This document shows positions 14,355 through 20,586 of a DNA stretch of 64,000 nt, in pieces. The translations under genes and the position numbers were made by a program. Positions within the stretch are counted from its first letter, which is position 1. Every line of letters starts with the position of its first letter. The notes beneath the pieces are model-generated. The model searched no databases and had not been told where the DNA came from. It saw nothing but the letters and a program-made list of their open reading frames with translations. Source of the stretch: Limihaloglobus sulfuriphilus (lineage in GTDB: Bacteria; Planctomycetota; Phycisphaerae; Sedimentisphaerales; Sedimentisphaeraceae); contig NZ_CP019646.1 in assembly GCF_001999965.1 (NCBI RefSeq), positions 186,001 to 250,000 on the forward strand, in the 5' to 3' direction.

Positions 14355-15209
14355 TCAGTGGCCTATCACGGCTATTTTCAGTTTATCCGCCAGCGCAAGA
14401 GTTTCCTGTTTGTCGATAATAAATGTGTTGTCAGCCTCGACGACCAGTGCCGCCGCGGCGTGTTCGTGCAGGCTTCTGATTGTGTCAGGGCCTACGCATG
14501 GGACATCAAAACGCATGTCATGGCTGCTGCGGGGAGCTTTGAGCAGTGTCCATTTGCCTTTTTTGCACAGCCTGCCGGCACGGGATATCATTCGGGCGGT
14601 TCCCTCGATGGCTTCGACCGCGATTACGTCTTTGTCCTTGACGGCGACAGACTGGCCTATGTCGAGCTCGCCGATTTTTTTTACGATCTCCCAGCCGAAC
14701 TCGATATCCTGGCCAACTGTGCGGCTGGGCTGTGTTTTCGTCATAACGCCTTTGTCGGCGAGCTGGTCTTTTGAGTATTTAGTAGAATCGGTCAAAATTA
14801 TACCTCCGCTTGAAAGCTCATCGGCTATTGCCGACAATAGAGTGTCATTTTGCATTGTTTTGCCGCGAAGCCGCCAGAAATACGTGCGCAGTGTCCGCCA
14901 GTCCGGCATATACGCGGCTATGAGCCGGGGGATTGATGCGTTTTGCAGGCGTTTTTTGGCAACCCTGCCGACCATGATTGTTTCCTGGGCTCCTCCGCTT
15001 TTCAGAAATCTTATCCATCTGCCCATCTTTGCCAGGGGGACATAGGAAAATTCGTCGCAAACATCTGCCAACTCTGGAGAAGCATTTCCGTCGAGTGCGG
15101 CGCATACAACCCGTTTGCCCGCTTTTTTCGCCCCCTCGGCTATGATAAAGGGCAGACGCCCCTGGCCGGCAATCAGCCCGAGAACATTATTGTTACTCGT
15201 TTGAGCCAT
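14355..15209 (-). CDS. lpxI: UDP-2,3-diacylglucosamine pyrophosphatase LpxI
   Basis: 284 residues of the LpxI (DUF1009) family, which cleaves UDP-2,3-diacylglucosamine to lipid X in lipid A synthesis. The N-terminal half begins LGLIAGQGRLPFIIAEGAKK and contains MVGRVAKKRL. The C-terminal catalytic half holds IGQSVAVKDKDVIAVEAIEG and DMRFDVPCVGPDTIRSL. Its start overlaps the end of lpxD by 17 bases. The two are plainly one unit, and LpxI takes the place of LpxH here. Confidence 0.93.
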   Translation of the reverse strand: MAQTSNNNVLGLIAGQGRLPFIIAEGAKKAGKRVVCAALDGNASPELADVCDEFSYVPLAKMGRWIRFLKSGGAQETIMVGRVAKKRLQNASIPRLIAAYMPDWRTLRTYFWRLRGKTMQNDTLLSAIADELSSGGIILTDSTKYSKDQLADKGVMTKTQPSRTVGQDIEFGWEIVKKIGELDIGQSVAVKDKDVIAVEAIEGTARMISRAGRLCKKGKWTLLKAPRSSHDMRFDVPCVGPDTIRSLHEHAAAALVVEADNTFIIDKQETLALADKLKIAVIGH

Positions 15210-16236
15210 GTGCTTTCTTAAGTTCTTCGAGTTCTTTGGATAAGCGTTTTATTTCCAGCTTCATCTCGGGCAGAGTTTGTATCAGGGTATAGGCCCGTCT
15301 TGCCTTGCCGGCATCAATCGCCGGAGAGCCCGCAACCTGTTTGCCCGCCTCAACATCGTTTGTTATCGCCGCCTGGCCGGCAGCCATTACCATATCGCCG
15401 ACCTTGATATGCCCGACAATAGCCGCCTGACCGCCGATTACGCAGTACTGGCCCAGCTCTGCCGTGCCGGCAACCCCGACCTGCGGTACGAGCAGACAGC
15501 CCCGGCCGATGCGGGCGCCGTGACCGATGGTAACCGAATCACCGATTTTGGCTCCTGCTCCGATAACAGTGTCGCGAAGTGAGCCGCGTTCGATGGCGGC
15601 GTTTGAGCCGATTTCAACGTCGTCTTCGAGTATAACCCTCTTTATATGAGGTATCTTGTGGTGTACGCCTTCATGTGTAGCAAAACCGAAGCCGTCCTGT
15701 CCGATGGTGGCGTTGGCCTGGATGATGACCTTGTTTCCTATAACGCAGTCCTCGAATATGACCGAGTTGGGGTAAGCGATACAGTTATCGCCCATTACAG
15801 TACCCTCGCCTATATAAACGCCGGGATATATCATGCAGCCGCTGCCGATTTTGACATTTTCAGCGATTACGGCGTAATCATATACACAGCAGTCATCGCC
15901 AATCTGCGAGGTATCTGCTATTGAGGCATTTGGGCTTATGCCCGGCTTGTGGTGTTGGCGGTGGCCGTACATCAGCTCGACTATCCGGCAGAAACTGTAA
16001 TACGGGTCATCGCAGAGAACAATCGCCTCCGCGGAGGTCTCCAGCTCTTTGTTCGCCAGCACCGCCGAGGCTTCGGTGGTTTTCATGTACTTGTTGTACT
16101 TGATGTTAGCAAGAAAGCTTATTGAGCCTTGCCCGGCTGTGTCCAGCGGCGAGACAGTGTTTATTACGATATTCTCATCGCCGATTATACGGCCGTTTAT
16201 ATGTGCAGCTATTTCTTTTAGTGTTGTTTCTGTCAT
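15193..16236 (-). CDS. lpxD: UDP-3-O-acylglucosamine N-acyltransferase LpxD
   Basis: The third enzyme of lipid A synthesis. A uridine-binding N-terminal domain (TLKEIAAHINGRIIGDENIV, then GSISFLANIKY) is followed by a long left-handed beta helix of hexapeptide repeats and a short C-terminal helix. The catalytic His lies in the segment FGFATHEGVHHKIPHIKRV. The frame stays open to 16287, but the ATG at 16236 (MTETTLKEIA) has an AGGA site six bases upstream and matches the family's N-terminus. It overlaps lpxI, which shares the pathway. The presence of both genes argues for a lipid A-containing outer membrane. Confidence 0.93.
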   Translation of the reverse strand: MTETTLKEIAAHINGRIIGDENIVINTVSPLDTAGQGSISFLANIKYNKYMKTTEASAVLANKELETSAEAIVLCDDPYYSFCRIVELMYGHRQHHKPGISPNASIADTSQIGDDCCVYDYAVIAENVKIGSGCMIYPGVYIGEGTVMGDNCIAYPNSVIFEDCVIGNKVIIQANATIGQDGFGFATHEGVHHKIPHIKRVILEDDVEIGSNAAIERGSLRDTVIGAGAKIGDSVTIGHGARIGRGCLLVPQVGVAGTAELGQYCVIGGQAAIVGHIKVGDMVMAAGQAAITNDVEAGKQVAGSPAIDAGKARRAYTLIQTLPEMKLEIKRLSKELEELKKAHGSNE

Positions 16237-16529
16237 TTGTTTCCTGACTATATCTGGCGCATCCCAGCGCGATAAAAATAATAACAATTATACGAAAACC
16301 TGCCGCTAATTCAATAAAATATAGTAAGCGTTGGAATTCAGGTGTGCGATTTGTGATTTTTCCACACTTTGTAACAATCACAGAAAATCAGAGTTCATTT
16401 GTTATGTTGTTCTGATACAGCGTATTAACTACCCGCTCATTGACATTCGCGGCTCTGATACAGGTTGAAATTTATTAAAATGCCATATCTAACAACACAA
16501 TGGTAGTTATTCGCGACTGTAAACTCCGA

Positions 16530-16638: not shown

Positions 16639-18141
16639 CTATTCGCCCGGGTAATCGCCGGCTGCCGGCTCCGCGGTGGATTCCGTTTCTAAATCGTATT
16701 CGTCTGTGCTCTCGTTTGTGTATTCGTCGGTGTTTTCGCCAGTGTCTTGCTCTGGTGCGTATTCGTCTGTATATTGATCTGGTACGTACTCGCCGGTCTG
16801 CTCGGCGGGGTATTCTTGTGGGGCAGATTCCTCTGTATATTCCTCTGTGTATTCCTCTGTGTACTCATCTTCCGTATATTCATCTTCAGCCGGCTGTTGT
16901 GCGTTATCCTCGGGCAGGGGCTGCTGAGGAGTTTGCGGTGTCTCTTCCCGGGGCTGAAGGTCAGTTTCCTGTTCCTGCGGTTCTGTTTGTTCGGGCTGGG
17001 CCTGTTCGAGCCGGTTTATCTGTTCCCGCAAAGCATCCACGAATCCTGGATTATTATCAATAATAACCTTTATAGCCGCCTGGAAAACCTGTCCGTTTTC
17101 TGTGCCGCTATGGGCGAGGCTTTGCCGGACAAGCGGCTCAAGAGCCTTTGGATCACCGAGCTGACCAAGGAAAACCGCGGCGGCAACCTTTGTTGAATAC
17201 TCCTCCGTTTCGAGCAGGTCGATCAACCCGTCAACATCACGCTCAAACATGTACTGCCGGGCCAGGGCGAGGTCATCATTAACCTCAGCCGGGGCTTGCT
17301 GCTCTGTTTTTATTGTCTGGCCAGAGACGGCTCCTTCCTGAGCTGTATCGGCGTTAACCCTTTCATCAGAGAGCTTTACGTCTTCTGGCCGGGGTGTTTG
17401 CGTGTTGTCGGGTCTTTGAGCCTCAGGCTCCTGCACTTCGTTTGGGCCCGTCAATAACGCCGTCAGTATAATTATCAGAATCACGGCTGCTACGGCAATA
17501 ATCGCGGCATATACTCCCCGAGGCATCTTCCTGCCGTTTGCCGCGGCGGCTTGGAACACTTCGGCTGTGAGCTCTCTTGTTTCAGCGAGGAATACATCAT
17601 TGTCCAGCGTTCTGCATCGGTTGAGCCGCTCCTTGAGTGCGGGCGTAAATGTGCTGACATCGAAATCGGTGCCCATTTTGATGCTTGAACGTTCGAGACT
17701 CTCACGGATGTTGTCCTGGCCTGTTTCAAGCTCCTTTGAAATCTGCCGCAGGGTTTCTTGAAAATAATATTTATGCAGAAAAATAAGACAGTCCGCCGGC
17801 GGCAGCGAGAGCAGATTTTTGACCGTGGATATTTCTTTGGGCTCCATCGGGTTTGACGGCGTAGAAGTTGCGCTGTTTACCTCAAATGATATCTCGGATA
17901 AGGCCTGCCGCCACAGCTCGATTATTGGGGAGCTATCGGAATTGATTATGTCGGAGGGTTTCTCCGCGGCCTTTTTCATGACTTTGCGGAAAATGTTTCT
18001 GCTCAGCTCACGTGAGCCGGTAAAGATATAAATATAATCCAGCAGCCCCGATGAGTAAGAATCGTAAAACAGGTTCCAGCCGCTTATCTTGCCGGCGTTT
18101 ATTCCATTTATCAGCCGTCTGTCATCATTATGATTAAACAT
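16639..18141 (-). CDS. Membrane-anchored sigma-factor-like protein with HEAT repeats and acidic tail
   Basis: 500 residues in four parts. Residues 1-60 (GWNLFYDSYSSGLLDYIYIF) resemble ECF sigma region 2. Residues 108-155 (LSLPPADCLIFLHKYYFQET, then LRQISKELETGQDNIRESLE) resemble the helix-turn-helix of region 4. One strong membrane helix lies at about 208-231. Then come a HEAT-like stretch near 305-335 (STKVAAAVFLGQLGDPKALE) and an acidic, Glu/Thr/Tyr-rich tail of about 100 residues with repeated DEYTE/EEYTE units. The sigma part would be cytoplasmic and the rest exported. It lies between lpxD and murG on the same strand. Whether it still binds RNA polymerase is unknown; the sigma regions are divergent. 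Confidence 0.6.
   Translation of the reverse strand: MFNHNDDRRLINGINAGKISGWNLFYDSYSSGLLDYIYIFTGSRELSRNIFRKVMKKAAEKPSDIINSDSSPIIELWRQALSEISFEVNSATSTPSNPMEPKEISTVKNLLSLPPADCLIFLHKYYFQETLRQISKELETGQDNIRESLERSSIKMGTDFDVSTFTPALKERLNRCRTLDNDVFLAETRELTAEVFQAAAANGRKMPRGVYAAIIAVAAVILIIILTALLTGPNEVQEPEAQRPDNTQTPRPEDVKLSDERVNADTAQEGAVSGQTIKTEQQAPAEVNDDLALARQYMFERDVDGLIDLLETEEYSTKVAAAVFLGQLGDPKALEPLVRQSLAHSGTENGQVFQAAIKVIIDNNPGFVDALREQINRLEQAQPEQTEPQEQETDLQPREETPQTPQQPLPEDNAQQPAEDEYTEDEYTEEYTEEYTEESAPQEYPAEQTGEYVPDQYTDEYAPEQDTGENTDEYTNESTDEYDLETESTAEPAAGDYPGE
16735..16885. repeat. Coding minisatellite for the Glu-Tyr-Thr tail
   Basis: Short, near-identical units of about 12-15 bases (TATTCCTCTGTG and variants, + strand) repeat here and encode (D/E)EYTE on the minus strand. 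Unit number is likely to vary between strains through slippage. Confidence 0.7.
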
Positions 18142-18215: not shown

Positions 18216-19334
18216 TTATGCAAGTTTTAGTATCTCACTGGCGATTGTTTCAGCGGCATCTTTTTTGGCAATACCGGCTGTTTTTTCAGACATCTGCTCT
18301 CTTATGCCCTTGTTTGACAACAGCGGCTCAAGTTTCTGCCAGATATTTTCCGCGGTGGCATTTCGATCTTCTTTCATGTCTTCCACAATCAGGCAGGCGC
18401 CCGCTTTTTCAAGCTCTATTGCGTTGAGCTGCTGGTGGTTGTCCTTGTGATAGGGGTAGGGCAGGCATATGAACGGTTTTCTGTAATACGTGTATTCCGC
18501 TATACTTACTGCACCTGCCCGGCCTATTACAATGTCTGCGCAGCTGTACATGTCCCAGATATTGTCGCAATAGTCAACCACCCTGTATTCTATACGGGCT
18601 TTTGCGGCGGCGTCTTTTAATCGCGTATCTTTTCCCCTGCCGCTCAGATGCAGCACCTGCCAGTTGTCGGCAAAACTCTCCAGACGCGGCAGCAGTGTTT
18701 CCATAGCGATATTTATGTTCAGTGCGCCGCTGGAGGCACCCGTAACAAGAAGTGTACTTTTGTCGGGCGAAAGATTGTATTCCGAAATAATTTTTTCCGG
18801 CCGCGGAGTTTCAAATTCTTCCCGCATCGGGCAGCCCGTGACAAATATTTTTGCGTTTGTGTTCGTAAACATGCCGGCAGTAGCCTGGTACTGACAGAAA
18901 ATTTTATCCGTTTTAGAAGCCATAAGCCTGTTTGATTTGCCCGGGACATAGTCAACGTTTATCAGGCAAACCGGCAGTGATTTCTTCTTCGCCGCGGCAA
19001 CCGCCGGAGCGGAGACATAACCGCCAATTCCGACTATAACAGATTTTTCAGTAAGCACTTGTGATACAATATTGCGGCTTTTTCTCTGGTTCAAAATGAA
19101 ATTGAGTATCTTTACCGGATGCAGAGCAAAACCTCTCGCCGGCAGGGCGGTGTATTCAAATTCCGTTTTGGAGAGGATATTTGCATCAATCGGGCTCTGA
19201 CTGCATAAAAAGTGGATAACCGTCTCCGGGGCGAGTTTGCGAATCTTCTGTGCCGCGGCGATTGCCGGGTAGATATGTCCGCCGGTACCGCCGCCGGCGA
19301 AGAAAACCTGTATTTTGCCGTTATTTTTTGTCAA
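18216..19334 (-). CDS. murG: UDP-GlcNAc transferase MurG
   Basis: A GT28 glycosyltransferase of 372 residues that adds GlcNAc to lipid I to form lipid II on the inner face of the cytoplasmic membrane. The N-terminal loop FAGGGTGGHIYPAIAAAQKI is diagnostic. The donor-binding half has LLVTGASSGALNINIAMETL and ADIVIGRAGAVSIAEYTYYR. The start overlaps the ftsW stop by four bases. Its presence supports a peptidoglycan wall. Confidence 0.95.
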   Translation of the reverse strand: MTKNNGKIQVFFAGGGTGGHIYPAIAAAQKIRKLAPETVIHFLCSQSPIDANILSKTEFEYTALPARGFALHPVKILNFILNQRKSRNIVSQVLTEKSVIVGIGGYVSAPAVAAAKKKSLPVCLINVDYVPGKSNRLMASKTDKIFCQYQATAGMFTNTNAKIFVTGCPMREEFETPRPEKIISEYNLSPDKSTLLVTGASSGALNINIAMETLLPRLESFADNWQVLHLSGRGKDTRLKDAAAKARIEYRVVDYCDNIWDMYSCADIVIGRAGAVSIAEYTYYRKPFICLPYPYHKDNHQQLNAIELEKAGACLIVEDMKEDRNATAENIWQKLEPLLSNKGIREQMSEKTAGIAKKDAAETIASEILKLA

Positions 19335-20512
19335 TCCTGAGCCTGATTTGTCTCGATTTGTTTATTTTTGCCTTCTCTGCCCGCGGCAATCGCGGCTAGT
19401 ATGCCCACGACGGCGGCACTTGTGAGAATGCTTGTTCCGCCTGAACTTACCAGCGGAAGCGGTATGCCCTTGTTGGGCAGTACACTTGTTACAACGCCGA
19501 TATTCATCACCGCCTGAAGCGTGATTCCGCAGGTGATACCCGCGGCCAGGAGCTTCCCGAAATTATCGCGGCACCTGAATAATGTTATAAATCCAACCGC
19601 CGCGAACAGGAAGAAAAGCATGAGTATAAGTATTGTGCCTATCAGGCCGGTTTCCTCGCCGATTACGGAAAAGATAAAGTCCGAGGAATCCACCGGCAAG
19701 TGCCCCCATTTTGTTGTGCCGCTGCCAATACCCTTGCCCCAGATTCCGCCGCTGCCGAGTGCCTGGAGCGAGCGGTTTGTCTGATACAGCAGGTCAGGAT
19801 CGGCTTTTTCAGGGAACATAAACGATAGAAGGCGGTTTACGCGGTATTCCTCTTTCATGACATAATAGGCCAGCACCGGCAGGACAAGCAGCCCCGAGCC
19901 GATGATGTGCAGCAGATTGGCGCCGCCGAAAATGAGCATCAGTCCGGTCATGGCGCTTAGAAATGCCGCCGTGCCGAAATCATTCATCAATATCAGCAGT
20001 ATGATAATACCCGAGACAAAGCATATCTTGCAGAAGTGAAAGAAGCTGAGTTTTTTGCCCTCTTTCACGTGCAGGTACATAAATGCCGCCTGATAGATAA
20101 TCAGAGACCATTTCGCCAGCTCCGAGGGCTGAAACATAACTGTAAGCGGGCCCAGCGGTATGCGTATCCAGCGCTTTGCCGCCGGCGGGCCGTAGCTCAG
20201 GGGTGTAAAATCGGCCAAAATCAGCAGAAATATAGAGGTCAGTATCATTAGCTGTATCAGCGAGATAAACTTGACTTTGCCGGGCAGTTCGAAAACCCGG
20301 TAAGGGATTCTGGAAGCGATGAGCATCGCAATCAACGCCGCGGCGGGGTAGATATATTTTGTCGGCGAGGGGCTGTTTCTCATATCGGCAAGGGCGGATA
20401 TGACAAATACAAGGCCAATACAAATCAGCAGTGAACAAAGCAGCAGCAGAACGCGGCTGCGGGTGAAGGTCTGATCCTCGATCAGCTTATTTTCTGTTAT
20501 TGTCTGCGTCAT
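19331..20512 (-). CDS. ftsW: Peptidoglycan polymerase FtsW (SEDS family)
   Basis: A polytopic SEDS protein with ten likely membrane helices. Family hallmarks are GGIWGKGIGSGTTKWGHLPV, DFIFSVIGEETGLIGTIL and NKGIPLPLVSSGGTSILTSA near the C-terminus. It polymerises lipid II at the septum. Pairing with murG favours FtsW over RodA. The frame extends to 20566; the ATG at 20512 (MTQTITENK) gives a normal N-terminus, although no clear ribosome site is seen at either start. Confidence 0.92.
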   Translation of the reverse strand: MTQTITENKLIEDQTFTRSRVLLLLCSLLICIGLVFVISALADMRNSPSPTKYIYPAAALIAMLIASRIPYRVFELPGKVKFISLIQLMILTSIFLLILADFTPLSYGPPAAKRWIRIPLGPLTVMFQPSELAKWSLIIYQAAFMYLHVKEGKKLSFFHFCKICFVSGIIILLILMNDFGTAAFLSAMTGLMLIFGGANLLHIIGSGLLVLPVLAYYVMKEEYRVNRLLSFMFPEKADPDLLYQTNRSLQALGSGGIWGKGIGSGTTKWGHLPVDSSDFIFSVIGEETGLIGTILILMLFFLFAAVGFITLFRCRDNFGKLLAAGITCGITLQAVMNIGVVTSVLPNKGIPLPLVSSGGTSILTSAAVVGILAAIAAGREGKNKQIETNQAQD

Positions 20513-20556
20513 GTGCCCGTTCTTCGAGTGAATAATCAATACGTAGTAAAAAAAAA

Positions 20557-20586
20557 TTAACATCAAAACCGATATGTTGTTATAAT
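20557..20586 (+). promoter_or_regulatory. Candidate promoter of the thiamine-binding-like gene
   Basis: TTAACA (20557-20562), an 18-base spacer and TATAAT (20581-20586) lie in the divergent gap. They would start transcription about 50 bases before the 20644 ATG. Confidence 0.45.

Follow-up and report, generated by a model that had tools for sequence, protein, structure and literature searches.

The gene between murG and lpxD in the window, which is the 64-kb stretch of DNA analysed here, encodes a 500-residue protein that shares homology with ECF sigma factors at its N-terminus. It is an ECF sigma/anti-sigma fusion, of the kind known from IutY and from groups ECF48/52/53. By computation, it descends from an ECF/anti-sigma pair and has a predicted topology with a single membrane span; its sigma half has lost the residues characteristic of sigma factors, and in its relatives this half is under constraint. 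We favour, with a probability of about 0.5, the interpretation that the protein is a membrane-tethered sigma mimic, in which a degenerate ECF sigma half with an anti-sigma remnant, a transmembrane helix, a HEAT sensor and an acidic tail would signal by partner binding. What appears to be new, judging from the papers searched, is the degeneration of the sigma half across a whole order; the fusion itself is known. A search of the literature found no paper describing these proteins or an order-wide degenerate sigma half.

The open reading frame runs in frame from its first ATG over exactly the interval given in Table 1. Its position between lpxD and murG, as proposed in an earlier sequence-only reading, is borne out by the Pfam matches of the two neighbours, and the three genes have a common orientation on one strand. 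Synteny comparison shows that the gene order ftsW-murG-fused gene is common to two genomes, G001 and G003, whereas in the sister genus (G002 and G004) no fused gene follows murG and no HEAT match was obtained. An envelope-stress role is only suggested by this neighbourhood. Directly behind lpxD lies lpxI (window 14355-15209), which assigns this organism's lipid A synthesis to the LpxI route. The genome carrying the window is a single contig of 3.87 Mb, and Rfam gave no match anywhere in the 64-kb window.

Table 1. Features of the fused gene and its neighbours, in window coordinates
Feature	Position	Strand	Basis
Fused sigma-like/TM/HEAT protein, 500 aa + stop	16639..18141	-	ORF; fused homologues across the order
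Sigma2-like domain, residues 1-92	17866..18141	-	TIGR02985 at residues 22-68; AF2 helices 4-15, 19-41, 44-60, 72-91; Foldseek ECF sigma
Sigma4-like domain, residues 100-156	17674..17844	-	TIGR02937 at residues 94-153; PF08281 weak; AF2 helices 101-156
Cytoplasmic helical linker, residues 160-206	17524..17664	-	AF2 helices 162-177 and 181-205
Single transmembrane helix, residues about 210-231	17449..17514	-	Hydropathy, flanking charges
Disordered extracytoplasmic linker, residues 232-284	17290..17448	-	AF2 pLDDT <50 at 234-284
HEAT-like module, order-restricted, residues 285-372	17026..17289	-	Family profile A2, 90 bits; AF2 pLDDT about 95
Acidic Tyr-rich low-complexity tail, residues 373-500	16642..17025	-	Composition; 12-nt tandem repeat
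lpxD	15193..16287	-	Pfam LpxD 3.8e-18; downstream of fused gene, gap 351 nt
murG	18216..19334	-	Pfam Glyco_tran_28_C 8.5e-32; 74 nt upstream of fused gene
ftsW-like (SEDS) gene	19331..20566	-	Upstream of murG; ORF, identity by inspection, synteny

The proposed layout of a membrane-anchored protein with an exported HEAT part and acidic tail also holds. Strong hydrophobicity sets in at about residue 212 (mean hydropathy over 19 residues, 3.19), and because Lys and Arg residues precede this span and acidic sequence follows it, an N-in/C-out topology is predicted. Pfam recognises the HEAT module weakly (HEAT_2, 0.0014), but the family profile matches it strongly, and its AlphaFold2 helices have pLDDT values of 93-97. 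The tail consists of 34% Asp and Glu and contains 11 Tyr residues. Acidic Glu/Asp-rich C-termini are also present in four fused relatives from another genus (L046, L047, L054, and L056), where G001 and G003 have carboxypeptidase-regulatory repeats, and the type of tail is thus independent of the family. On the cytoplasmic side, the helical linker is probably the remnant of an anti-sigma domain, as its position equals that of the N-terminus of the anti-sigma factors encoded as separate genes; the profile-profile match between the two is weak (hhalign probability, 31-37% only).

The sequence-only reading had proposed that helices like those of sigma regions 2 and 4 make up the N-terminus, and had named an absence of profile or structural similarity as the result that would overturn this. 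Both comparisons gave ECF sigma factors as matches, and among the relatives the domain stands in for a separate ECF gene. Residues 1-183 of the window protein alone matched TIGR02985 (4e-4) and TIGR02937 (5e-4) of NCBIfam, covering regions 2 and 4, and Pfam PF08281 matched weakly (E 0.04). These scores do not reach the curated cut-offs (19.7 bits versus 42.9 for TIGR02937, 13.9 versus 25.7 for PF08281), and phmmer with the window protein as a single sequence found no sigma factor in the PDB. Fused relatives score up to 3.4e-10 against sigma profiles in the first set of relatives. A family N-terminal profile of 20 rows, comprising 19 fused N-termini and the separate sigma factor of L120, matched Bacillus SigW at 7.8e-17 over positions 7-189, followed by AlgU, BldN, SigL, and RpoE. 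With a profile built from Pfam-confirmed ECFs of the same order plus four ECFs from the genome that carries the window, the window protein obtained 15.0 bits, compared to 6.1 bits for the best non-ECF, non-fused ORF among 2484. Ten loci in genome G000 share one and the same weak region-4 score; nine of them (L030-L036, L038, and L039) are open frames of 335 aa, and L037 is shorter (122 aa). A mobile element present in several copies, with an HTH that imitates sigma region 4, is the most likely explanation.

Structure prediction leads to the same assignment. AlphaFold2 models the sigma2 and sigma4 helices of the window protein at pLDDT of about 80-94, and essentially the first 40 Foldseek matches of the N-terminal model are ECF factors or PhyR, with a modest E of about 1e-3 and a probability of 1.00. 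SigW-RsiW, AlgU-MucA, BldN-RsbN, RpoE-RseA, and PhyR are at the top, most of these structures having been crystallised with an anti-sigma factor. The full-length model gave the same leading matches together with helical-repeat proteins that fit the HEAT part. The modelled sigma2/sigma4 arrangement lies closer to SigW and CnrH in complex with their anti-sigma factors (rmsd 6-8) than to sigma factors bound to polymerase (about 27), a difference to which we give no weight. The window protein thus has the sigma2-sigma4 two-domain homology of ECF sigma factors (sigma70 group 4).

Of the 161 genomes of the order, 77 have the HEAT-like module behind a membrane span (E<=1e-5). Its matches at E<=1e-8 in a sample of 397 genomes from the class all fall within this same order, which speaks against a class-wide or phylum-wide module. 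A protein scan of genome contigs with the window protein gave no match, and the same scan with the relative L055 matched two Phycisphaerae MAGs. Sixty-two TM-HEAT loci were read, five of which are cut by contig ends. In 36 split loci, an ECF sigma gene lies directly upstream, frequently overlapping the HEAT gene by 4 nt, and a short cytoplasmic N-terminus precedes the span of the HEAT protein. These split relatives therefore have the co-oriented adjacent ECF gene typical of anti-sigma factors, whereas the window protein carries the ECF-like domain within its own chain. The HxxxCxxC finger, a signature of zinc-binding class I anti-sigma factors (PMC7406223), occurs in 11 of the 36 split partners, and zf-HC2 reaches the curated level in two. 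At the 20 fused loci, including that in the window, about 210-275 residues stand before the span, and an upstream ECF gene is lacking. Seventeen of the fused domains are detected by the ECF profile, and the remaining three (L054, L056, and L111) align with detected close relatives. Fused domain and separate upstream ECF gene never occur together at one locus. This distribution identifies the window protein as an ECF sigma/anti-sigma fusion, and the occurrence of 20 fused loci in many genera, including the single-contig genome of the window, rules out a sequencing or assembly artefact. One further locus, L053:4247-7669 (G041), has neither arrangement: the HEAT and carboxypeptidase-regulatory repeat protein encoded there begins with no more than a signal-like N-terminus, no sigma gene adjoins it, and a paralogue lacking the HEAT part lies next to it.

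Two loci bear on how the fusion came about. At L120:3001-6299 (G147), a sigma ORF and a HEAT ORF that adjoin or overlap correspond exactly to the two halves of the fused protein; the first matches positions 3-198 of the fused N-terminal profile and the second continues with positions 198-256. This locus may be either an unfused pair or a frameshifted fused gene. At L128:2912-4471 (G149), a single ORF contains a degenerate ECF domain, an intact HxxxCxxC finger, which is absent from the window protein, a TM and a HEAT part. It is placed beside the split locus L051 in the HEAT tree (support 90/33), and this position, together with the retained finger, points to a second, independent fusion. The window protein forms a long branch in this tree, its place being unresolved.

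The sigma half of the fused proteins has lost its functional signature. Seven positions were compared, namely E, D, and Q of region 2.2, N, D, and R of regions 2.3-2.4, and T of region 4. All 20 fused proteins retain none or one of the seven, compared to 2-7 in 40 ECFs; the window protein retains none, with few confident alignment columns around region 2.4. It therefore lacks the conserved clamp-binding (2.2) and -10 (2.3/2.4) residues of ECF factors; regions 2.1/2.2 are those that touch the beta' clamp helices (PMC7406223). Polar consensus positions are retained to 6-33% in fused proteins versus 39-83% in ECFs, and hydrophobic, Gly, or Pro positions to 24-48% versus 45-86%. In the window protein, regions 2.3-2.4 have a net charge of -2 (+3 to +8 in ECFs), and the sigma4-like domain keeps its modelled HTH fold with an acidic recognition helix of charge -1 (+1 to +7 in ECFs). 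A basic region-4 helix (RLYRCRHSFRR) is retained in some relatives, and DNA binding is thus still possible there. In practical terms, a sigma-like match in this Phycisphaerae lineage calls for a check of its clamp and -10 residues before it is taken for a sigma factor.

These losses weigh on the most serious alternative, in which the protein is a membrane-held working sigma factor like IutY or SCO4117, an envelope signal leading to site-1 and then RseP-type cleavage so that the freed sigma domain and RNA polymerase transcribe envelope genes. The gross architecture is shared with IutY and ECF52, the genome encodes S2P/M50 proteases, the conserved fold is under selection, and the profile scores of the relatives point in the same direction. 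However, a working sigma factor, as the sequence-only reading had in mind, is not supported, given the loss of clamp-binding and promoter residues in the window protein and all 19 fused relatives, and the negative charges in the window protein where ECFs are positive. We consider this alternative unlikely, although it is the best of those competing with a mimic.

Selection was assessed by dN/dS in pairs of relatives of the window gene rather than in the gene itself, and several estimates are saturated. Most resolvable values for the sigma2/sigma4 stretches lie at 0.07-0.34, and those for HEAT at 0.04-0.17, the HEAT module often being the most conserved part. In the G001/G003 pair, the sigma2/sigma4 value is similar to that of HEAT (murG, 0.105; ftsW, 0.056). 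It could be imagined that, after the fusion, the sigma domain became a structural relic, no more than a passive anchor or plug in the cytoplasm, and that the HEAT part and tail work alone, for example as an envelope scaffold by FtsW and MurG. The strong degeneration of the sigma half, the particularly low HEAT values in g12 (0.04-0.09) and the ftsW-murG linkage conserved within the family would agree with such a role. A relic under no selection is disfavoured by the dN/dS values of the sigma half, and all 20 fused proteins have retained the domain, making this alternative improbable. Least credible is an unrelated all-helical cytoplasmic domain merely resembling ECF regions, which the sub-threshold scores of the window protein, the phmmer result and the modest Foldseek E would permit but which the SigW match, the decoy-controlled score, the fold and the replacement of the upstream ECF gene largely refute.

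The loss of the signature residues from a fold that is kept under purifying selection therefore favours a mimic, PhyR-like in its logic, over a released working sigma factor. The single polypeptide descends from an ECF sigma factor and the membrane-bound anti-sigma factor paired with it. Its cytoplasmic part consists of the sigma2-sigma4 fold followed by the probable anti-sigma remnant, and its outer part, behind one membrane span, of a HEAT-like module as putative sensor and an acidic tail predicted to be disordered. An envelope signal may be read by the HEAT module or the tail and could change the exposure of the sigma-like domain, either by conformation or by membrane proteolysis; the M50 site-2-type (S2P) protease encoded in the genome makes proteolytic release possible. 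Once exposed, the domain would bind a protein partner, such as another anti-sigma factor, and would not itself direct transcription. More tentatively, ECF/anti-sigma genes may have been fused at least twice in this one Phycisphaerae order, each sigma half now being a selected, non-transcribing membrane mimic and thus a signal-gated transmembrane counterpart of PhyR. The protein shows a sigma/anti-sigma pair that has turned into a single membrane protein with its sigma surface erased and its fold kept, which makes it testable whether ECF signalling can be rewired by a sigma mimic held at the membrane. It is also a candidate envelope sensor, encoded at a conserved site behind ftsW-murG in a planctomycete lineage that has received little study.

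The closest counterparts within the order are the split ECF/HEAT anti-sigma pairs (e.g., L058, L051, and L109), which have the same TM-HEAT part and an ECF gene directly upstream, but consist of two genes with an intact sigma signature and a zinc-finger or short anti-sigma N-terminus. A sigma factor and sensor in one protein, which had been regarded as unusual, is already found in IutY of Pseudomonas putida (ECF243) and in ECF48/52/53, all of which are fused ECF/anti-sigma proteins (PMC8999054, PMC5411451). Like IutY, the window protein is one polypeptide with an ECF domain in the cytosol, a single membrane span and an extracytoplasmic regulatory part. However, the sigma domain of IutY is functional and is freed by Prc and RseP (PMC5411451, PMC8999054), whereas the sigma residues are lost here, and the outer part of IutY is a FecR-like anti-sigma domain in siderophore signalling instead of a HEAT module and acidic tail. 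ECF48/52/53 proteins, such as SCO4117 of Streptomyces coelicolor, likewise have an ECF domain with a C-terminal membrane extension as a built-in anti-sigma factor (PMC8999054). They differ in their zinc finger, which the fused proteins here mostly lack (it is kept only in L128), in the role of SCO4117 in development, and in the functional sigma residues missing here. The sigma-like domain of PhyR of Alphaproteobacteria has an ECF fold in which the promoter and RNAP regions have degenerated, and it titrates an anti-sigma factor (PMC8103513). The window protein shares both the fold and the degeneration of its surfaces for RNAP and promoter, and its model matches PhyR structures in Foldseek. It is nevertheless not a PhyR, since its domain content includes no response-regulator receiver; PhyR is a soluble protein fused to such a receiver and titrates NepR, whereas the sigma-like domain described here is fused to a membrane HEAT protein.
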